From positions 124,001 through 188,000 of the forward strand of contig NZ_JAGGJW010000011.1 of assembly GCF_017873175.1 (NCBI RefSeq): a DNA stretch of 64,000 bases, written 5' to 3'. Shown one piece after another: positions 36,720 to 47,718 of the stretch; the first letter of the stretch is position 1; each line of letters begins with the position of its first letter. The stretch is from Neorhizobium petrolearium. Lineage in GTDB: Bacteria > Pseudomonadota > Alphaproteobacteria > Rhizobiales > Rhizobiaceae. A program made the translations under genes and the position numbers. The notes under the pieces are model-generated. The model was not told the DNA's origin. It worked only from the letters and a program-made list of their open reading frames with translations, and ran no database searches.

Positions 36720-37865
36720 GTGACGTTTAGGTCTGCCGAAATCAAGGCCGAAGATCTGCCCGGCGGCGACGGTGAACGCTACCTGCTGTCCGGTGACTGG
36801 CGCGGCCAGACGATCCTGTCGATGCTGAAGGAGTTCCAGCATCTGGAGCAGGTCCGGAGCCGGGGCAGGGTGGAAATCGACCTTTCCGGTATTGCCGGCA
36901 TCGACACGGCCGGTGCCTGGCTGATCCGCCGGCTGATGACGGCGAAGGGTGAGCAGGGCAGCGAAGCCGTATTGATCGGCGGTGAAGGGCCAATTCGCGA
37001 GCTGATCGGGGTATTGCCGGAAAAGGCGCCGGCACCGCCGTCGGACCAGGGCGACAAGGGCACGCTCTTCGAGCGCCTTTTTGCGCCGACCGGCAAGGCC
37101 ATGGCGGAACTCGGCAGCGATTTCTACGCGGCGATGCATATTCTCGGCTCCGCGGTCCGCGGCGCGCAGATGAAGCTCGGCCGCGGCGCCGGCGTCTCGC
37201 CCGCTTCCGTAGTCACCCATATCGACCGCATGGGCGTGCGCGCCGTGCCGATCATCGTGCTGATGTCGTTTTTGATCGGTGCCATCATCGCGCAGCAGGG
37301 CGCTTTCCAGCTCCGCTATTTCGGCGCCGAAATCTTCGTCGTAGACCTCGTCGGCATCCTGCAGCTGCGCGAGATCGGTGTGCTCCTGACAGCAATCATG
37401 ATCGCCGGCCGCTCCGGAAGCGCGATCACCGCCGAGATCGGCTCGATGAAGATGCGCGAGGAGATCGACGCGCTGACGGTGATCGGCCTCAACCCCGTGG
37501 GCGTCTTGATCTTCCCGCGCCTCGTGGCGCTGACGGTCGCGCTGCCGCTCCTGACGATTGTTGCCAACTTCGCCGCGCTTACGGGAGCGGCGGTCGTTGC
37601 CTGGGCCTATTCCGGCATCACCTTCGATACCTATCTGTCCCGCCTGCACGAGGCGATCGACCACACGTCCGTCGCATCCGGCATGATCAAGGCCCCTTTC
37701 ATGGCGCTGTCGATCGGCATCGTTGCGGCCGTCGAGGGCATGAAGGTCGGCGGCAGCGCCGAATCCCTCGGCCAGCACGTCACGACATCCGTCGTAAAGG
37801 CAATCTTCGTCGTCATCCTTATGGATGCAGTTTTCGCCATCTTCTATTCCGCGATCGATTTCTGA
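36720..37865 (+). CDS. mlaE: Lipid ABC transporter permease with STAS domain (MlaE family)
   Basis: 381 residues from GTG 36720. The first 110 residues are a STAS-like domain (GRVEIDLSGIAGIDTAGAWLIRRL). The MlaE permease follows, with five to six helices including PIIVLMSFLIGAIIAQQGAFQL and the EIGVLLTAIMIAGRSGSAITAEIGSMK core. In Mla systems the STAS protein (MlaB) is usually separate; here the two are fused, as in many alphaproteobacteria. It moves phospholipid between inner membrane and MCE protein. The stop overlaps the mlaF ATG by one base. Confidence 0.92.
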   Translation: MTFRSAEIKAEDLPGGDGERYLLSGDWRGQTILSMLKEFQHLEQVRSRGRVEIDLSGIAGIDTAGAWLIRRLMTAKGEQGSEAVLIGGEGPIRELIGVLPEKAPAPPSDQGDKGTLFERLFAPTGKAMAELGSDFYAAMHILGSAVRGAQMKLGRGAGVSPASVVTHIDRMGVRAVPIIVLMSFLIGAIIAQQGAFQLRYFGAEIFVVDLVGILQLREIGVLLTAIMIAGRSGSAITAEIGSMKMREEIDALTVIGLNPVGVLIFPRLVALTVALPLLTIVANFAALTGAAVVAWAYSGITFDTYLSRLHEAIDHTSVASGMIKAPFMALSIGIVAAVEGMKVGGSAESLGQHVTTSVVKAIFVVILMDAVFAIFYSAIDF

Positions 37866-38710
37866 TGGAGAAGGGTTTGGAAGCGGTGAAGCAAGAGGGA
37901 GAGGTCAATGCGGATGGCCGGCAGGTCGTGCTTTCGGTGCGAGACGTGACGGTCGGCTTCGGCAGCCAGCTTGTGCTCGATCACCTGAACCTCGACGTTT
38001 ATCGCGGTGAGATCTTAGGCTTTGTCGGCGCTTCCGGGACGGGAAAGTCGGTGCTGATGCGCACGGTGCTCGGCCTTTTACCGCACCGGTCCGGCACGAT
38101 CGAAATCCTCGGTGTCGATTACGACAATGCTTCGGAGGAGGAGCGCATGCTGGTCGACATGCGGCTCGGCGTGCTTTTCCAGCACGGTGCTCTGTTCTCG
38201 GCACTGACGGTCAAGGAAAACATCCAGCTTCCGATGCGCGAATATCTCGACCTGCCGCAGTCGCTGATGGACGAGCTTGCCTATCTGAAGGTCGAGATGG
38301 TCGGCCTGTCGCCGGATGCGGCGGACAAATATCCCTCCGAACTGTCAGGCGGCATGATCAAGCGTGCAGCACTTGCGAGGGCGCTCGCGCTCGATCCGGA
38401 CCTCGTCTTCCTCGATGAGCCGACATCCGGCCTTGATCCGATCGGTGCGGCCGATTTCGATGCGCTCATCGCCAAGCTGCGCGATACGCTGGGCTTGACC
38501 GTCTATATGGTAACACATGACCTGGATAGCCTTTTTTCGGTTTGCGACCGTATTGCCGTGCTTGGCCAGAAACGGGTATTGGTGGAAGGAACACTTGAGG
38601 ATATGTTTGCCTGTGACGATCCATGGGTTCAGTCCTATTTCCGTGGCAAACGGGCGCGGTCGGTCGTGGCTCACGAAAAGCAGCCGACAGCAGAAGTAGA
38701 GAAGACGTAA
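37865..38710 (+). CDS. mlaF: Lipid ABC transporter ATP-binding protein (MlaF)
   Basis: 281 residues. Walker A is GASGTGKS near residue 56, the signature is SGGMIKRAALARALA near 161, Walker B is DLVFLDEPTSG, and the switch His is in MVTHD. It energises the MlaE permease from the cytoplasm. It starts on the stop of the permease gene and is three bases from mlaD, so the run is one operon. Confidence 0.95.
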   Translation: MEKGLEAVKQEGEVNADGRQVVLSVRDVTVGFGSQLVLDHLNLDVYRGEILGFVGASGTGKSVLMRTVLGLLPHRSGTIEILGVDYDNASEEERMLVDMRLGVLFQHGALFSALTVKENIQLPMREYLDLPQSLMDELAYLKVEMVGLSPDAADKYPSELSGGMIKRAALARALALDPDLVFLDEPTSGLDPIGAADFDALIAKLRDTLGLTVYMVTHDLDSLFSVCDRIAVLGQKRVLVEGTLEDMFACDDPWVQSYFRGKRARSVVAHEKQPTAEVEKT

Positions 38711-38713
38711 TCC

Positions 38714-40084
38714 ATGGAAACCAGAGCCAATTACGCCCTTGTCGGTTTCTTTACACTTCTGGTGATCGCAGCCGCTTTCGGGTTTGTCTACTGGATGGCC
38801 CAATCCGGCCGCGGCGGGCCTACGGCCGAGCTGGCGATTCGCATCCCGGGTTCGGCCAACGGCCTTTCCGTCGGCTCGCCGGTCCGTTTCAACGGCATTC
38901 CCGTCGGTTCCGTGCGAGGCCTCACGATAGATCCGGACGATCCGCGCTATTCGATCGCGTTCACGGAAGTCAGGGCCGACGCGCCGGTCTACCAGTCCAC
39001 CCAGGCGAGGTTGGAAGTGCAGGGCCTGACGGGGGCCGCCTATATCGAGCTGTCCGGCGGTGCAAAGGGCGAGGAGAACATCCTCCAGAAATCGCTGGAG
39101 ACCGGACGGCCGGCGGTGCTGATTGCCGAACAATCGAGCGTGACGAACCTGCTTGCGACCGCCGACAAGATCCTCCAGCGCGCCGATGAAGCGATCGGCG
39201 ATATTCAGGGGTTTGCCGCGGATGCACGCGGGCCGCTGACCCAGACCATCCGCAACGTCGAGACCTTCACGTCGTCGCTCGCCCAGAACTCCGACAGCAT
39301 CGACAAGTTCCTCAACAGCCTTTCGACGCTCTCGGTGACGATCGATAGCGTCTCCGGAACGCTGAATTCGACGCTCGAAGCCGCCGAGAAACTGGTCAGC
39401 GCGATCGATGCGGAAAAGATCAACGCCGTCGTTTCCAACACCGAACGCGCCACCCGCAACATCGCCAATGCTTCCGACAATTTCGGAGACCTCGTGACGA
39501 ATGTGAAGAATGCCGCCGCGAGCTTCGAACAGGCTGGAGTGCAGGCCCAGAACGTCCTCAAGCGGGTCGATACGGTGATGAACTCCGTCGATCCCGATCA
39601 GGTCAAGAGGACCATTGCCAACATCACCGCTGCCTCCGAAGATGCCCGGCAGACCGTCAGCTCGGCGCGCAACGTGGTGGACGGCTTCACCGAGCGCCGC
39701 GAGGATATCAACCGCGCCATCGGCGACTTCACGGAACTGGCGAGAAAGCTGAACGAGGCCTCCAGCCGCGTAGACGGCATCCTGGCCAAGGTCGATGGCC
39801 TCGTTTCCAGCGACGATTCGCAAGGCCTTTTCGTAGAGGCCCGCAGAACGCTCGAGTCCTTCCGCACCGTCGCCGACAACATCAATGCGCGCGTTGGCCC
39901 GATAGCAGACAATCTGTCACGTTTCTCGTCGAGCGGTCTGAGGGATATCCAGACGCTCGTGAACGACGCCCGACGCACCGTGCAGTCACTCGACCAGACG
40001 ATCAGCAATTTCGACCAGAATCCGCAGCGGCTGATCTTCGGCGGCGAGACAGTAAAGCAATATGACGGCAGGACACGGCGGTAA
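38714..40084 (+). CDS. mlaD: MCE/MlaD-family lipid-binding protein
   Basis: 456 residues. One N-terminal transmembrane helix (about 7-30) is followed by a single MCE domain (about 38-115: IRIPGSANGLSVGSPVRFNGIPVGSVRGL). A long helical region then runs to the C-terminus, rich in Ala, Ser, Asn and Asp heptads. The long tail is much larger than in E. coli MlaD (183 residues) and could form a tunnel or needle across the periplasm, like Pqi or Mce proteins. Operon partner of mlaE and mlaF. Confidence 0.93.
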   Translation: METRANYALVGFFTLLVIAAAFGFVYWMAQSGRGGPTAELAIRIPGSANGLSVGSPVRFNGIPVGSVRGLTIDPDDPRYSIAFTEVRADAPVYQSTQARLEVQGLTGAAYIELSGGAKGEENILQKSLETGRPAVLIAEQSSVTNLLATADKILQRADEAIGDIQGFAADARGPLTQTIRNVETFTSSLAQNSDSIDKFLNSLSTLSVTIDSVSGTLNSTLEAAEKLVSAIDAEKINAVVSNTERATRNIANASDNFGDLVTNVKNAAASFEQAGVQAQNVLKRVDTVMNSVDPDQVKRTIANITAASEDARQTVSSARNVVDGFTERREDINRAIGDFTELARKLNEASSRVDGILAKVDGLVSSDDSQGLFVEARRTLESFRTVADNINARVGPIADNLSRFSSSGLRDIQTLVNDARRTVQSLDQTISNFDQNPQRLIFGGETVKQYDGRTRR

Positions 40085-40095
40085 GCGGGACGTTC

Positions 40096-40734
40096 ATGTC
40101 GGAGAATGGGGGTTTGATGACCGGTTCGGAGTTCCTGGGACAACGTGCGGACCGCCGTCCGTTTCTGCTCGCGGCGCTGCCGCTCGTGGCCATGCTGGTA
40201 ACCGGCTGCGGCAGCAAGGCGAACAACGATACGTTCGACCTGTCGATCACGCCTTCCGGGCAGGGTCCGGCCGCCCGCAACCGCCAGATCCTGGTGCCCG
40301 AGCCGACGGCGCTGAAATTGCTGAACAGCGAGCAGGTCGTCGTGCGCGTTTCGCCGTCGGAAATCCAGTATCTCGCCGATTCCCGCTGGGGCGACCGCCT
40401 GCCGGCTCTCGTTCAATCGAAGCTCGTCGAGGCCTTCGAGAATTCCGGCCGCCTCGGCGGCGTCGGCAAGCCGGGGCAGGGGCTCGCGATCGACTATCAG
40501 GTCGTCACCGATATTCGCGCCTTTGAAGTGACAGCGACCAGCCCGCGCGTAGCGAATGTGGAAATCTCGGCAAAGCTTCTCAACGACCGCAACGGTACGG
40601 TACGCGCCCAGAGCGTGTTCACGGCAACTGCGCCCGTTTCCGGCCAGGAGAACCGCGATTTCATCGAGGCGCTCGACAGAGCGTTTGCCAAGGTCGGCGC
40701 CGAAATCGTCGACTGGTCGCTGAAGTCGATGTGA
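40096..40734 (+). CDS. ABC-type transport auxiliary lipoprotein
   Basis: 212 residues from ATG 40096; ATG 40117 with GGGGG upstream is an alternative. The signal sequence ends in the lipobox VTGC near residue 38. The domain VRVSPSEIQYLADSRWGDRLPALVQSKLVEAFENSG is the auxiliary-lipoprotein (PqiC/YmbA-like) core. It should be an outer-membrane-linked partner of the MlaE-MlaF-MlaD exporter or importer. It is 11 bases after mlaD and closes the operon before a strong terminator. Confidence 0.88.
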   Translation: MSENGGLMTGSEFLGQRADRRPFLLAALPLVAMLVTGCGSKANNDTFDLSITPSGQGPAARNRQILVPEPTALKLLNSEQVVVRVSPSEIQYLADSRWGDRLPALVQSKLVEAFENSGRLGGVGKPGQGLAIDYQVVTDIRAFEVTATSPRVANVEISAKLLNDRNGTVRAQSVFTATAPVSGQENRDFIEALDRAFAKVGAEIVDWSLKSM

Positions 40735-40822: not shown

Positions 40823-43800
40823 TTAGCTGAAGCGGCCGGCGGCGTGGGCGAGCATCGTGTAGACCTTGCCCGTATCCGAGGTCAGGTAGCTCTGCGTCAC
40901 CGTCTTGTCGCGGTCGGTGCGGGCGACGTCAGCAAGCAGCTTTTCGAAATCGGCGATGTAGCGATCGACAGCCTTGCGGAATTCCGGCTCGCGCTCGTAC
41001 TTGTGCTTGATCTCGTCGAAGGTCTGCTGGCCTTTCAGCGTATAGAGGCGACGGGTGAAGACGTCGCGTTCGCCGCGCTGGTAGCGCCGCCACAGATCGA
41101 CCGATGCGTCATGGTCGATCGCGCGGGCGATATCGACCGAGAGCGAATTCAGCGACTCGACCATATGGCGCGGATTGCGATTGTCGCCGTTGCTGCGTGG
41201 CGCGGGAGCCGGATCGGCCGGGCGGGCCGGTTGTGGTTGGCGTGCCGCAGGCGCTTCCTCGAGCTCGTCGCGCGAGGCGCCGCGCAGGAGGTTGCTGATC
41301 CAGCCTTCATCACCACGCGATCCCTGCTGTTCAGGCGCACGCGGAGCCGGCGCCGATGCCGGTCGGTCGAGCGGAAGCGTACCGCGCAGCGAGCCGGAGG
41401 AATAGGGATCGTTACGGGGTGCGGCGGGAGCCGGCTGCGGACGAGCCGGCGCTGGCTGAGGCTGAGGCGCCGGGGCGGGGCGGGGCGTCGAAGCTTCGGA
41501 GACTTCGAAGTTCTGCGTGGAGCGACCAACCAGCGCGGAAATATCCTGAAGAGCCTTGATCTGCTCGGCGACCGCGCGGCGCATGGCCGCGGCACTTTCC
41601 TTGGCTTCTTCCGGAAGGTCGAAGGCACCGCGCTTCAGTTCCGAGCGGGTGACGTCGAGTTCGCGGCGGATATCCTGCGCCGAACGCCGGATCTCGTCGG
41701 TCGCGCCGGAGAACCGGTTGATCGCTTCCTCGACCGACTCGCGCAGTGTTTCGCGAAGCTGCTCGGCCGCGCTGCCGGACCGGTTCGTGGCATCCGACAA
41801 CAGCCGTTCGATATCGCCGAGCGACTGCGAGATGCTGCCACGCATCCGCTCCGAAAGATCGCGGGTGCGCTTTTCGGCTTCCGACAGCGTCGCCTCGATG
41901 GCACGATTGGCGTCACCGCCGGCATTGGTCAGCGCTTCGCGCATCGCATCCGCAGTGACTTCGGCACGGTGCTGGGTTTCCCCGAGCGTGCGGCCGATAT
42001 CGGCAAACGAGGTGTGCAGGCTTTCGCGCAGCCGTGAACCTACCTGCAGTGAACGTTCTTCCGCACGTTCAAAAGCGCCGTCGACGAGGCTTGTCAGGCT
42101 GCGCATCGTTGCTTCGATTTCCTCGGAGCGCTTGACGAGACCGCCCGCAAGGCTGTTGAGGGCGCTCTGGCGTTCGTCCAGCGTGCTGGTGAGGTTGGAC
42201 TGGGCGGCGTCCAGGAGATCGGAGGCCTGCGCGAGCACTCTGGAATGCTCGTCGAAGCGGCTGACGATGCCACCCACCTGGTCGAACGTCTGGCTGAAGA
42301 CCTCCGTCATCCGTTCGATATTGGTCTCCAGCATGCGGGTCGAACCGGAAACGATATCGGCGGCCTGCGTCGCCGATTGCGTGAAACGATTGGCCGTCAC
42401 GCCAAATTTACGGTCGGCCTCTGCCAGATGCTCCACAACCAGTTCCGTGGTGCTGCCGAGTTCCTGCGTCGCCTGTTGAACCAGTGCGCTGATGCTGGAA
42501 TTGCTTTCTGCAAGCTTGTCGATGAGGCCGTTTACCGCGACCGACAGGCCCTGTTCGACACGGCGCATGGTGCCGGCGGCATCCTCGGTCCGCTGGCTGA
42601 TTGCCGCAAGCGTCTCGTTCGTCCGGGCGGCGATGGCATCGATGAGCGCCGAATTTTCGTTGCGGATGCGCGCACTCGTCTCCTCGGCCGTGGACGAGAG
42701 ACGTTCTGCACCCTGCTGCGCCGCTGCGGTAATCTGCGTGACGGCGGCTCGGCCGGTCTCGGCATATTCCTCGACCATCGGCTTTGCCTTCTCGTCGAGA
42801 ATGCGAGACAGTTCGGCCGAACGGCTTGCGAGCATGGAATTGAGGTCGCGGGCGCGGGTATCGAGGGCCGAACGGATCGCTTCGCCGCGCGCGGCAAGGG
42901 CGCGGTCGACGGCGTCCATGGCAGTATCGAGCTGGCTCGCGGTTTCGGCGAGCGCGCCGCGGATATCGTCGCCCCGGGTGCCGAGCACCTTCTGTGCATC
43001 GTCGAGCGCTTCCGAAATCGCTGCCACCTGGCGTTTCACAAGATTGTCGGCCTCCGCCACCTTGCTGACGATCACGCTGCCAGCCTCGGAGAAGGCATGC
43101 GCTACGGTCGCCGCCTGGCCGGCAAGCCGGTTCTGCGTTTCCGAAATCCGACCGACGATCTCTGTGGAACGCTCTTCGATCGCCTTGGTGAATTCGTCAT
43201 TTCGGTTGGCAAGTTCTTGCGTGAATTCGGAGCCGGCGCGGGCGAGCGCTTCCGCCGAGCGGGTGGCCTCGCCGTCCATGCTCTGGGCCGCTGCGCTGAC
43301 TGCTTCGCGCAGGGTCGAGGCGAGGCCGACGGCCTTGCTTTCGATGGTTTTCGTGACGTTGTCGAGTCCGATCGTCAGCGCCCGGTCGACCGTTCCAAGC
43401 CGTTCCTCGATACGGGCCGTACGGTTGTCCATGGTCTCGGTGATCCGGTCCGTTGCTTCGCCCGCTGCACGCTCCAGCTCGGCTGTGCGGCTGCCAAGCG
43501 TGGTGGAAAGCTTGGTGCCCGCGTCTTCGACGAGCTGGGTCGCGTTGAGGATCTCACCGCGGATACGGCCTTCGAGACCACCGAACGTGGACTCGATCCG
43601 GCTTCCGGTTTCCTCGAGCGCCTGCTGAACATCGCCGACGGTCTCGCGGACACGGTTGGAAAAGGCATCCGCCGACTGTCCGATGCCGCTGGCCGCGTCG
43701 GAGAGCTGGGTGGTGAGCGCGCCGACATTGTTGCGCAGCCGTTCTTCGAGCGACTGGCCAGCCGCATCGATGGCGTCCTTGAGCGTGCTCTGCTGGTTCT

Positions 43801-46800
43801 CGAGCGACATTTCCAGCATGCCGGCACTTGCCGCAATGGATGTGCTGATGGACGTCGCCTGATCGTTCATCAGGCTGCCGATCTGCTCATGTGCCTCGCC
43901 GAGCGCGCCGGCGATCATGGCGGTGCGCTCTTCGAGCGTTTCACGCAACTGCTCGTAGCCGGAGCCGAGGGTCGCCTCCATCTGCTGGTGGCCGAGACCG
44001 ATCGTCGCTGCAATGCGGTCCTGTGTCGAGCCGAGGGCCGTCTCCATGCGTTCCAGGCCGTCGGCCATGCCCGCCTCGAACCGCTGCGTGCCGTCTGCGA
44101 GCGTGCTCTCGATGCGGCCGGCGGCCCCGCCGACGGTCTGTTCCAGGCGAGCCCCGCCGCTTTCGAGAATACGCGAGAGCTCGGCAGTCCGGTTCTCCAG
44201 AGAAAGGTCGAGATTGAGCTGGTTATCGGCATAGGCGTTGCGAATGGCATCCACCCGGGCAGCGAAGGACTGCTCGATGCGGCTGTCCGCATCGGTGAGC
44301 GTGCTCGCAAGCGCGGTGGCCTTTTCGTCCAGCATGCCCGAGAGACGATCTTCGCTGAGTGCAAAGGAAGTGGCGATTTCCATCGACTTGTCGTCGAGAA
44401 TCTCGGCGAGCTTTTCGCGGTTTGTGTTCAGCGTTTCGTGGATTTCGGACGTACGTCGGCTGAGATTGTCGCCGATCTGCTGTTCGGTCTCGGAAAGCGC
44501 GCGGAGGATGGATTCCGATTTTTCATTCAACGCGCCGGTGAGGCGATCCTCGCCGAGCGCGAAGGACGTTGCGATTTCCATCGACTTGTCATCAAGGATT
44601 TCCGCGAGCTTTTCGCGGTTTGTATTCAGCGTTTCGTGGATTTCCGACGTCCGCCGGCCGAGATTGTCGCCGATCCGCTGCTCGGTTTCGGAAAGCGCGC
44701 GGGCAATGGATTCCGACTTTTCATTCAACATGCCGGTGAGGCGATCCTCGCCGAGCGCGAAGGACGTTGCGATTTCCATCGACTTGTCTTCGAGGATCTC
44801 CGCGAGCTTTTCGCGGTTGCTATTCAAGGTCTCATGGATTTCCGACGTACGACGGCCGAGATTGTCGCCGATCCTCTGTTCGGTCTCGGAAAGCGCGTGG
44901 ACAATGGATTCCGATTTTTCATCCAGCATGCCGGTGAGGCGATCCTCGCCGAGCGCGAAGGACGTTGCGATTTCCATCGATTTGTCTTCGAGGATCTCGG
45001 AAATGCGTTCCCGATTGGTATCAAGCGATGCCTGCATGGCAGCGGCATGGCGGCCGAGATCGCCGCTGATGCGCTCTTCGCTTTCCGAGAGTGTCCGGGC
45101 GATATGTGCCGACTTCTCGTCGAACATGCCTGCCAGACGCTCCGGCGCATTGGAGATCAGCGTGTCGAGCGCGGTGGTCTTCTGGCTGAGAACCTCGGTC
45201 AGATGATCGTGGCTGCTGGAAAGGGCGGTGATGATCGCGCCGGAGCGGACTGCCAGCCCCTGCTCGAACCTCGCCTGGTTTTCCGAGAGCGCATCGAGAA
45301 GGTAGTTGCTGCGCTCGGCAAACGTACCGTCGATCGTCTGCTGAACACTCGCAAGCCCTTGCTGAAGCTCGCCGATACGTAATCCAAGCGCATCCTGGAT
45401 GCCGGCGACGTGGGAGGTCAGTGTGCCGTCGATCGTCTCGTGGACATTCGAAAACGCGTCCTGGATCTCGCCCGTCCGCGACGCAAGCACCGTGTGGATT
45501 TCGGCCGTGCGGGAGGCGAGCGTATCCTGGATTTCGCTGCTGCGGGCCGTCAGTGCACCGGAGAGCTCGCGCGCGCGGCTTTCAAGCACGGAATCGAGCA
45601 CTTCCTGGCCGGTGTCGAGTGTGGTCGCAAGCGCGAGCGACTGGTCGGTCAGCGAGGAGCTGATGCGCTCGATGCTGGAGCTTAAGATGTTCTCGATCGA
45701 CTCCGAGCCGCTTGCAACGGTCTCGTTTATGCGGGCAAGGCTGTCCATCAGCTTGCTGTCGAGCGTGCCGGCACGCTGATCGAATGCCGACGTGAACTGC
45801 GAGATGCTCTCGTCGAACGTCGTGCTGAGCTGGCCGACGGTTGCCTGCAGGCGTTCCTCGAAGAAGCCGGAACGCATGTCGAGGTCCATGACGACGTCGT
45901 CAACCGTGCTCTGCAAGCTCTGGCGGAAGAAGGAGCCTCTTTCATCGAGCGAGCTGTTGAGGGTGGCGAGGATGCCGTCGAGGGAGCCGGTGAGCGTCCT
46001 TTCGCTGTCTGTGAGGCCTTCCGTGATTTCGCGTGTGCGGGCGAGCAGGGTTTCGTTGAGCTGTCGGGTGCGGTCGGCAAGCGCCGCGTTCAGCTTTTCA
46101 GTATTGGCGTCGAGCGTCGAGGCGCGGGTTTCGAATTCGTTCAGCAGCGCCTGGCCGCGTTGCGAAAGCACCGAGGTGATCTCTTCCATCCGCTCGTCGA
46201 ATTCGTGGGCGAGCGCGAAGCCGGAGGAGTTCAGGGTCTGAAGCAGGCTTTCCGCCTTGTTGGTGAGCAACGTGCCCAGCGCCTCGCCGGCTGCGTCGGA
46301 TTTCTCCATCAGTGCGGCGGCACGGGTATCGATCATCGAAGCGAATGCTTCGCCGGATGTTGCCAGGCGGACCGAAATCTCTTCGGTCGCCAGCGACAGC
46401 TCTTCCTTGAGCTGGTCATGGGCGCCGACGATCGAGGAGCGGATGCGTTCCGCGTGATTGACGATTGCGTCGCGCTCGGCGCCGAGTTCGTGCACGAGCC
46501 CTCTGACGCGCAACTCATTGTCGGTGAAGCTGCGCTCCAGCGCATTGACTTCCGAATGCACGAGGGTTTCGAGCTCGGTGGCGCGTGCGATGGTGCGCTC
46601 GATGCCTTCATTCATCGCCGAGACTTCGCGGCGCACGGCCTGTCCGACGCTCATGATCCGCTCGGAGGCGATCGTCTCCGGCTCCGACAAGCGAAGCGCC
46701 ACTTCGGCCATGGAGCGGGCAGCGTTCCTGAGGTCTTGCGCGCGCGCCATCATGATGGCGAAGGCGAAGAACAGCATGATCGGCACAAGGATGCCGACCA

Positions 46801-47251
46801 CGAGCGCGACGAGGCCCGGCGCAGCAAGCACGCCGGCGACGGAAGTGATTTCCCACAGTTGGCTGCCATAAATGAGCTGGCCAAGCCCGATTCCGGCGAT
46901 CGCCCAGAGAATCGAGATGATCACTGCATTGCGGATGGCCGAACGCATGGCGCCGCCTTCCAGGGTCCTGAGAAGGGCCGTCGTGCTGCGCCTGCCGGCG
47001 TCATTGGCAGGCTGGAGGGCCGGAGACTTGGCAACAGTCTCGGAAGCCGGCGATCTGTAGGATTCGGCGGCGTCCTCCTGGTTTTGCGAGGGAGCCGGAC
47101 GCTGCTTGGATGTATCTGACACGCGGGCCTCCGAGGCATGGAGCGCTGGTTTGGGGCGCGGCGGCTCATCGTCGAAATTGATCTTCAGAGCATCTTCCAA
47201 CGCCTGGAACGCCGTCTCGTCGATCGATTCGCTGCTGGTTTTCTTCGCCAT
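40823..47251 (-). CDS. rgsE: Giant membrane-anchored coiled-coil protein, GPR/RgsE-like polar growth factor
   Basis: 2142 residues from the ATG at 47251 (MAKKTSSESIDE). An acidic, Pro-rich N-terminus precedes two membrane helices at about 108-128 and 138-168. Then about 1,700 residues of apolipoprotein-like amphipathic helix follow, with many TSEIHETL, DRLTGMLDEKS and SRIESTF units. A Pro/Ala/Gln linker leads to a conserved C-terminal domain of about 115 residues (SVDLWRRYQRGERDVFTRRLYTLKGQ). Size, layout and taxon match the Growth Pole Ring protein of Agrobacterium and RgsE of Sinorhizobium, which organise unipolar cell growth. Recognition is from memory of the family. Exact 198-bp repeats lie inside. 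Confidence 0.85.
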   Translation of the reverse strand: MAKKTSSESIDETAFQALEDALKINFDDEPPRPKPALHASEARVSDTSKQRPAPSQNQEDAAESYRSPASETVAKSPALQPANDAGRRSTTALLRTLEGGAMRSAIRNAVIISILWAIAGIGLGQLIYGSQLWEITSVAGVLAAPGLVALVVGILVPIMLFFAFAIMMARAQDLRNAARSMAEVALRLSEPETIASERIMSVGQAVRREVSAMNEGIERTIARATELETLVHSEVNALERSFTDNELRVRGLVHELGAERDAIVNHAERIRSSIVGAHDQLKEELSLATEEISVRLATSGEAFASMIDTRAAALMEKSDAAGEALGTLLTNKAESLLQTLNSSGFALAHEFDERMEEITSVLSQRGQALLNEFETRASTLDANTEKLNAALADRTRQLNETLLARTREITEGLTDSERTLTGSLDGILATLNSSLDERGSFFRQSLQSTVDDVVMDLDMRSGFFEERLQATVGQLSTTFDESISQFTSAFDQRAGTLDSKLMDSLARINETVASGSESIENILSSSIERISSSLTDQSLALATTLDTGQEVLDSVLESRARELSGALTARSSEIQDTLASRTAEIHTVLASRTGEIQDAFSNVHETIDGTLTSHVAGIQDALGLRIGELQQGLASVQQTIDGTFAERSNYLLDALSENQARFEQGLAVRSGAIITALSSSHDHLTEVLSQKTTALDTLISNAPERLAGMFDEKSAHIARTLSESEERISGDLGRHAAAMQASLDTNRERISEILEDKSMEIATSFALGEDRLTGMLDEKSESIVHALSETEQRIGDNLGRRTSEIHETLNSNREKLAEILEDKSMEIATSFALGEDRLTGMLNEKSESIARALSETEQRIGDNLGRRTSEIHETLNTNREKLAEILDDKSMEIATSFALGEDRLTGALNEKSESILRALSETEQQIGDNLSRRTSEIHETLNTNREKLAEILDDKSMEIATSFALSEDRLSGMLDEKATALASTLTDADSRIEQSFAARVDAIRNAYADNQLNLDLSLENRTAELSRILESGGARLEQTVGGAAGRIESTLADGTQRFEAGMADGLERMETALGSTQDRIAATIGLGHQQMEATLGSGYEQLRETLEERTAMIAGALGEAHEQIGSLMNDQATSISTSIAASAGMLEMSLENQQSTLKDAIDAAGQSLEERLRNNVGALTTQLSDAASGIGQSADAFSNRVRETVGDVQQALEETGSRIESTFGGLEGRIRGEILNATQLVEDAGTKLSTTLGSRTAELERAAGEATDRITETMDNRTARIEERLGTVDRALTIGLDNVTKTIESKAVGLASTLREAVSAAAQSMDGEATRSAEALARAGSEFTQELANRNDEFTKAIEERSTEIVGRISETQNRLAGQAATVAHAFSEAGSVIVSKVAEADNLVKRQVAAISEALDDAQKVLGTRGDDIRGALAETASQLDTAMDAVDRALAARGEAIRSALDTRARDLNSMLASRSAELSRILDEKAKPMVEEYAETGRAAVTQITAAAQQGAERLSSTAEETSARIRNENSALIDAIAARTNETLAAISQRTEDAAGTMRRVEQGLSVAVNGLIDKLAESNSSISALVQQATQELGSTTELVVEHLAEADRKFGVTANRFTQSATQAADIVSGSTRMLETNIERMTEVFSQTFDQVGGIVSRFDEHSRVLAQASDLLDAAQSNLTSTLDERQSALNSLAGGLVKRSEEIEATMRSLTSLVDGAFERAEERSLQVGSRLRESLHTSFADIGRTLGETQHRAEVTADAMREALTNAGGDANRAIEATLSEAEKRTRDLSERMRGSISQSLGDIERLLSDATNRSGSAAEQLRETLRESVEEAINRFSGATDEIRRSAQDIRRELDVTRSELKRGAFDLPEEAKESAAAMRRAVAEQIKALQDISALVGRSTQNFEVSEASTPRPAPAPQPQPAPARPQPAPAAPRNDPYSSGSLRGTLPLDRPASAPAPRAPEQQGSRGDEGWISNLLRGASRDELEEAPAARQPQPARPADPAPAPRSNGDNRNPRHMVESLNSLSVDIARAIDHDASVDLWRRYQRGERDVFTRRLYTLKGQQTFDEIKHKYEREPEFRKAVDRYIADFEKLLADVARTDRDKTVTQSYLTSDTGKVYTMLAHAAGRFS
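44340..45140 (-). repeat. 198-bp tandem repeat array inside the coiled-coil gene
   Basis: A 66-residue unit (beginning SMEIATSFALGEDRLTGML, ending REKLAEILEDK) occurs three times almost unchanged. Diverged copies lie on both sides. On DNA, CGAAGGACGTTGCGATTTCC recurs every 198 bases, near 44561, 44759 and 44957. Codons are nearly identical, so the copies arose or were homogenised recently. The unit is a whole number of heptad-like turns and keeps frame. Confidence 0.9.
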
Positions 47252-47718
47252 GCGGTTACGCCTCGTTACATACTCGCCCGGCCATCCCATCCGACGCTCT
47301 GCCGCCCGCAGACCGAAAGACGGAACACTGCCTGCCGGAAACCCAACTCCTTCATGGAGCCTGCTTCCTATTCACTTTCAGGTCGGACGGCCGTTCTTTC
47401 AAACGGATGATAACGAAAGCTTACCAACCTGACATCTGCGGCAAAAGGAGAATATTCCTCGCCACCTTAGTCGTACTGTAGTGGCACATCCGGCCATCTG
47501 GCACAATTAAAACGCCTGCCTGAGGCCGGTGGCTCGAATTGTTGTTAACAGAATTTAAACCATGGAAAGATGCAAAAGTCCTAAAATCCCGGGAGCTTAG
47601 CAGAAATTAACCATATGGGAAGATTTCAGCCCCGATTGTGCCGGAATTTAACGGGATAGCGGCATGTGACCCGCACAATTCGGGACACTTTTAGAATAAC
47701 AATAGGGAAAACAGGTCC
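47252..47718. other. Divergent regulatory region, rgsE-like gene and hpt
   Basis: 467 bases with no credible gene, AT-richer than the coding sequence. It holds several TTAAC half-sites (near 47546, 47607 and 47652) and one TTAACCAT octamer. Both promoters should be here. Confidence 0.5.
47607..47614 (+). promoter_or_regulatory. TTAACCAT octamer, candidate CtrA site
   Basis: TTAACCAT, one of the CtrA-associated motifs of rhizobia, lies 105 bases before the hpt start and 355 before the rgsE-like start. An eight-base match is weak on its own; the nearby TTAA-N6-TTAA (47546-47559) is one base short of the full spacing. Confidence 0.35.

Follow-up and report, generated by a model that had tools for sequence, protein, structure and literature searches.

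The locus and its growth pole ring gene

The stretch analyzed here (64,000 nucleotides of Neorhizobium petrolearium, referred to hereafter as the window) carries on its reverse strand a long gene, gpr, at 40823–47290 (−). Its first ATG gives a protein of 2155 residues; the true start may be the second methionine, residue 14. The open reading frame and its translation, a match to the Pfam profile PF01442 (Apolipoprotein; E 7.3e-63, nine stretches over much of the protein) and orthologues across the order support, by sequence comparison, the assignment of this gene to the GPR/RgsE-type growth pole ring proteins, which an earlier sequence-only reading of this DNA had also proposed. The family by sequence is that of A. 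tumefaciens GPR (Atu1348) and S. meliloti RgsE (SMc00190), which, so far as the published passages on them go, measure 2115 and 2089 residues and have in common with the window protein N-terminal membrane segments, PF01442 matches and a long helical middle, which in this family comprises about 1700 residues. Profile matches to ZorA and SpiroCoCo fell under those profiles' own cut-offs and were taken as coiled-coil resemblance, and a PDB sequence search with the window protein returned nothing at E 0.001.

Anchor distances, sister pairs, a tree and orthologue searches (all described below) divide the protein into five parts. Hydrophobic segments lie near residues 116–182, and a length-invariant N-terminal block (residues 141–560; 45611–46870, −) comprises the end of this membrane region and the first part of the rod. 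There follow a length-variable mid-rod (about residues 561–1294; 43409–45610, −) that changes mostly in 11-residue steps, a C-terminal rod (about residues 1295–1900; 41591–43408, −) whose changes are mostly multiples of 11 or 29 residues, a proline-rich linker of unquantized length that serves as an internal control (about residues 1901–2060; 41111–41590, −) and a conserved C-terminal domain (residues 2061–2155; 40826–41110, −). The rod as a whole is estimated to span residues 185–1924, with four prolines in ~1740 residues.

The C-terminal part of GPR was matched in 39 of 40 genomes of a first survey and, within the genus, in 56 of 57 (all but G012). For the C-terminal domain, a sample of 199 genomes of the order Rhizobiales gave matches in 195 (none in G090, G118, G173 and G233, three of which belong to one genus); the genomes without a match may reflect loss, divergence or an assembly gap. 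Neorhizobium huautlense, N. alkalisoli and Xaviernesmea oryzae are among the nearest named relatives, and Agrobacterium-named records show 64–66% identity to the window protein over the best segment.

Adjacent to gpr, and convergent with it, lies a Mla-type lipid-transport cassette at 36720–40734 (+) (MlaE permease, ABC ATPase, MlaD and an auxiliary lipoprotein). Of 79 named loci, 56 contain MlaE, MlaD and gpr together; the 12 listed in detail are all convergent. An antisense reading frame through the repeat region (42245–45382, +; 1045 residues) was considered as a meaningful gene and rejected, since a frame of such length arose in 35 of 200 shuffles of synonymous codons. Elsewhere in the window, Tandem Repeats Finder reports a short imperfect tandem repeat at 865–959 (about 51 bp, 1.9 copies).

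A 66-residue unit amplified from one copy to three

Within the mid-rod, Tandem Repeats Finder identifies a 198-bp period at 44322–44998 (88% matches) which, being sustained across 3.4 copies, is not a chance match. Comparison of the units resolves three full 66-residue (198-bp) repeats at 44405–44998 (−), namely U1 (44801–44998, −; residues 765–830), U2 (44603–44800, −; residues 831–896) and U3 (44405–44602, −; residues 897–962), which pairwise are identical at 174–181 of 198 nucleotides, 58–62 of 66 residues and 53–56 of 66 third codon positions (Nei–Gojobori dS 0.28–0.40, dN 0.03–0.07). On one side is U0 (44999–45196, −), a diverged, older unit that is also present beside the single unit of 14 relatives, and on the other U4 (44207–44404, −), the start of which resembles U1–U3 before diverging; U0 and U4 have just 92–120 of 198 nucleotides in common with each other and with U1–U3. 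The sequence-only reading had placed the array at 44340–45140 and described its three units as almost identical, third codon positions included, among much more diverged repeats. The three units are real and the divergence of the others is borne out, but the range takes in parts of U0 and U4, and the claim of near identity was overstated, as 10–13 of 66 third positions differ. At 11/3 residues per turn, 66 residues make six hendecads, or 18 turns.

Each of the 14 nearest relatives (those of highest C-terminal GPR identity) has exactly one unit-like stretch (at least 40 of 66 residues), against three in the window, so a repeat number fixed in all relatives, which would speak against recent expansion, is not what is found. 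Pairwise alignment makes the window 132 residues longer at the array in all 14 cases (in two of them as 66 + 66); a displayed alignment covers five of the 14 and one more distant gene, L035. In a tree of units, U1–U3 group as one clade with 100/99 support, placed among the single units of the relatives, and U0 stands separately, older and common to the relatives; dS between units is lower than that between the window and the 14 relatives over the C-terminal rod (0.63–1.13). The single unit in every relative, the single U1–U3 clade and the lower unit dS together indicate a one-to-three amplification on the window's own lineage. These comparisons, in which one genome represents the window species, thus show a lineage-specific tandem amplification that postdates the split from every sampled relative. 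The event is not very recent, the unit dS being about half that to the lowest-dS relative (L033). The earlier proposal of recent duplication is therefore upheld as lineage-specific expansion and corrected as to age, and gene conversion, which had been offered beside it, is not needed as the source of the similarity.

We also considered, and set aside as very improbable, that the copy number is an artefact of assembly. The genome is a draft in 64 contigs, and one of the compared loci (L166) has an N run inside gpr; however, identical stretches between the window units reach 51–57 bp at most, the array is interior to a contig of 289,555 bp, and 35 of 112 genes, taken from separate assemblies, carry such arrays.

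Tandem duplications of unrelated sequence fall into few lengths

A set of 130 loci, after leaving out two cut by an edge (L052, L186), two in which no gene was found (L066, L189), one that is the window itself (L188) and 14 duplicates, yielded 111 genes, and with the window 112 distinct GPR genes. Tandem duplications (at least 85% nucleotide identity across at least 80% of the unit) are present in the 35 genes mentioned above and amount to 41 events, some of them common to sister species. Their units measure only 11, 22, 29, 33, 44, 55, 66, 69, 73, 80 or 88 residues, and 35 of the 41 are multiples of 11. Arrays of 66-residue units in six other species agree with the window unit at 17–24 of 66 residues (one unit alone being taken from L182), such that these arrays have their length in common with the window, but not their sequence. 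The C-terminal rod of many relatives shows a further recurrent quantum, 29 residues or about 8 turns long, as in L057 (residues 1590–1652) and L067 (residues 1549–1617).

Mid-rod length is mostly quantized in steps of 11 residues

We compared lengths by an alignment-free approach, locating conserved anchors in 111 genes and measuring the distances between them. This set includes the window and excludes L166, a draft genome in which gpr is split at a short N run that looks like an assembly gap rather than a true truncation. In the more diverged rod the acceptance threshold for anchors was 45% identity, at which a few distances may be misplaced; such errors should blur a length rule more than create it. 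The distances 141–221, 221–381 and 381–501 are identical in every gene with both anchors (109/109, 110/110 and 110/110, respectively). The mid-rod (anchors 501 to 1295), which is far less conserved than its flanking blocks, runs from 253 residues shorter to 363 residues longer than that of the window, a range of up to 616 residues with 58 distinct lengths in the 111 genes. Its length nevertheless equals the window's modulo 11 in 76 of the 111. The other 35 are offset by +7 (14 genes), −1 (12), +4 (4), +1 (2), +6 (2) and +3 (1); the +7 class fits changes of 18 or 29 residues, and the twelve genes at −1 are L050, L055, L058, L062, L070, L072, L073, L077, L087, L091, L105 and L176. The linker (1861–2061) takes 49 distinct lengths that are evenly spread modulo 11, and the phase concentration at 11/3 (resultant) is 0.81 for the mid-rod versus 0.07 for the linker.

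The same tendency is seen between close relatives. Among 55 disjoint sister pairs (52 at 70% identity or above), the mid-rod differs in 32, by a multiple of 11 in 23 (binomial versus 1/11, p 1.4e-17), and the linker differs in 44, by a multiple of 11 in three, a comparison that is not size-matched because linker differences are small. On a tree built from the conserved parts (in which L049 and L143, with short N-termini, cover under half of the columns), at least 75 changes of mid-rod length entail only 17 changes of modulo-11 class, as against 77 class changes in 89 length changes for the linker.

Between anchors 221 and 1861 the 111 genes measure 1354–2038 residues, about 203–306 nm if drawn as one extended helix, and GPR of A. 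tumefaciens is described as six foci that form a 200-nm ring (PMC8262873). Such dimensions favor the idea, raised in the sequence-only reading, that strains of a species differ in repeat number and that this number sets the size of the ring or pole. Of six disjoint sister pairs with 98% identity or more over the C-terminal 520 residues, however, only two differ in mid-rod length; gpr thus gives little sign of fast switching, and we regard length tuning of this kind as quite unlikely. That rod length sets ring size is a conjecture.

Rod indels in alignments, within the family and beyond

In global alignments of 71 overlapping nearest-neighbor pairs, 96 of 132 rod gaps are multiples of 11, as compared with 4 of 269 gaps in the N- and C-terminal parts of the same proteins; 15 rod gaps measure 1–10 residues, including six of a single residue in Shinella pairs, where the rod boundary is probably misplaced. 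We set such counts aside as evidence on their own, in favor of the anchor distances and the tree, because an aligner may favor multiples of 11 in periodic sequence, because the pairs overlap and because short linker gaps are never multiples of 11. With rod limits tightened and gaps left unmerged, multiples of 11 make up 96 of 121 rod gaps over all 71 pairs (four of the 121 being short) and 39 of 50 over 41 disjoint Rhizobiaceae pairs. In the disjoint pairs only two of the 50 are short (3 and 4 residues), versus 140 gaps of 1–10 residues outside the strict rod limits, with the caveat that disordered linkers may gain small indels faster. A recount of the Rhizobiaceae pairs with tightened limits and with gaps up to 60 residues apart merged, a procedure that hides small gaps, gives 34 multiples of 11 among 43 rod indels, and none of 1–10 residues.

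Quantization recurs in other families. From 80 genes outside the genus we drew 32 disjoint pairs. Thirty of them represent 14 other families and two a different genus of the window's own family; in one further family, f42, no pair was usable. In these 32 pairs 55 of 74 merged rod indels are multiples of 11, versus 6 of 128 for gaps beyond the rod, and seven of the 74 measure 1–10 residues. At least one multiple-of-11 rod indel is found in 10 of the 14 families; the remaining four comprise two with no rod indel, one with only a change of −40 residues and one with only a small one.

Helical phase and DNA repeats

Pooling the other-family pairs with the merged Rhizobiaceae set gives 117 rod indels, 89 of which are multiples of 11. 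The 28 exceptions divide into fifteen of 11–120 residues, seven of 1–10 and six of more than 120; helical phase was assessed on the first fifteen, with the other 13 outside the test. Measured against the hydrophobic period over rods (3.654 residues), the fifteen have a mean cosine of 0.79, a value reached in none of 5000 nulls, and the nine that are left once the 29s and a 58 are removed still give p 5e-5. Mid-sized exceptions to the 11-residue rule thus tend to keep the phase of the helix.

A rod built of 11-mers could also change in 11-residue steps through mutation only, its 33-bp direct repeats seeding slippage or recombination with no selection on phase. Exact in-frame repeats of at least 12 nucleotides were counted in the mid-rods of 76 genes that lack recent duplications, and 556 of the 707 are spaced at multiples of 33 bp. 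Much of the quantization could therefore come from biased mutation alone; mutation bias probably contributes to the 11-residue steps, and its share may be larger than we estimate. Nevertheless, third-position identity at lag 11, taken over differing residues, is not raised (0.344 versus a mean of 0.341, sd 0.0065), and earlier, selected duplications may have left the long repeats behind. The phase kept by non-11 indels of 11–120 residues is a further point against a purely mutational origin, as is the scarcity of short rod gaps described above, since small indels would not be removed by a bias in mutation. We therefore consider mutation by itself an unlikely explanation. The phase tendency of the mid-sized exceptions, together with the rarity of small gaps in a mid-rod that is otherwise poorly conserved, points to selection on helical register.

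The hydrophobic stripe of the rod

Residue lag peaks in the window protein include 11, 22, 33 and 66, and its hydrophobic residues recur every 11 residues, as expected of hendecads (3.67 residues per turn). The 20 11-mers of the array have two strictly hydrophobic positions (20 of 20 each), position 3 being Leu in 16 and Phe in 4, and position 10 Ile in 13 and Leu in 7. A single-chain AlphaFold2 model of residues 641–1059, built from seven aligned sequences (mean pLDDT 76, pTM 0.22), places residues 2–258 and 278–418 of its 419 in helix; the low-confidence break at window residues 899–917 and the pTM value speak against an unbroken helix, though we distrust the break, since at that point the window sequence stands alone in the alignment. 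The rod, with its few prolines, is read here as a long hendecad helix that probably forms a coiled coil.

Genes of eukaryotic apolipoproteins contain 11- and 22-codon repeats, encode an 11-residue periodicity and have grown by internal duplication. This periodicity, together with the PF01442 match and the Mla-type cassette adjoining gpr in 56 of 79 loci, could suggest that the rod forms amphipathic lipid-binding helices like those of apolipoproteins, with unit number setting the lipid-binding surface. Apolipoproteins are small lipid carriers, however, and lipid binding by the GPR array would be conjectural. Residues 699–1028 of the window protein have low mean hydrophobicity (0.17) and a net charge of −1.9 per 22 residues, which, together with the narrow two-position stripe, would in our judgement suit a coiled coil better than a lipid-binding face; we hold the lipid-binding alternative to be improbable.

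Discussion

Our preferred reading, to which we assign a probability of roughly 0.7, is that GPR contains a hendecad coiled-coil rod that tolerates changes of length but rarely loss of register, and that has grown by in-frame duplications. Segments of the mid-rod would be duplicated or deleted as short in-frame DNA repeats recombine or slip; products whose hydrophobic stripe stays in helical register would survive, and most of those in which it shifts would be lost, selection being the main filter. Survival of the in-register products would make the middle a length-tolerant, phase-sensitive spacer between the fixed-length, membrane-proximal block and the conserved C-terminal domain. The sequence-only reading missed the main point, which is that length changes come in helix-phase quanta, in many families and from units unrelated between lineages. 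A stronger version, in which a phase-locked rod keeps the angle between the membrane block and the C-terminal domain and grows in three-turn steps of 1.65 nm, the number of steps setting ring or pole dimensions, is speculative and on balance rather unlikely.

Published deletions in A. tumefaciens GPR bear on this reading. In the passages that report them (PMC8262873), removal of ~20 residues (20 or 21) within domain A-IV-4 (residues 232–494) interferes most strongly, whereas a deletion of similar size at 1100–1120 largely complements, a difference that the authors explain by local structure. Taken by residue number, A-IV-4 lies within the length-invariant block. Twenty residues correspond to 5.45 turns, so both deletions should shift phase; on these passages the variable middle seems to bear a phase shift better than the invariant block does, and that the 1100–1120 deletion largely complements argues mildly against the strictest register model.

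A periodic constraint on length has its nearest precedent in the SMC arm, also a long bacterial coiled coil with periodic allowed lengths, as the relevant passages of PMC5344682 describe from natural sequences and engineering. SMC arms differ from GPR in that their steps are of ~100 residues on a heptad basis, as opposed to 11-residue steps on a hendecad basis, highly variable length and visible tandem duplications. Coiled coils on average vary less in length than other regions (as stated in part of PMC5082667), whereas GPR largely keeps phase and not length. The main text of PMC8262873 describes the domain layout and contains no word beginning "repeat" or "duplicat"; RgsE is called "large and repeat-containing" in a passing remark of PMC7327166, where a wider length threshold (±50%) was used and an S. 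meliloti strain lacking rgsE is described as viable. The sections and passages of these two papers considered here do not mention an 11-residue length rule. Among the matches listed in the open literature for hendecads, coiled-coil length, 11-residue or apolipoprotein repeats and GPR/RgsE, none was a paper on a GPR length rule by its title or the start of its abstract.

For the biology of these bacteria, our findings mean that the rods of an important shape protein stand tens to hundreds of residues apart in related species, with helical phase largely kept. This amounts to a candidate design rule in which 11-residue steps are allowed and others only rarely. The published ~20-residue deletions may accordingly be read as phase shifts, beyond the removal of sequence. 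The natural length variants offer a ready panel for asking whether rod length sets ring size, and GPR provides a clean case for separating selection on register from repeat-driven mutation.
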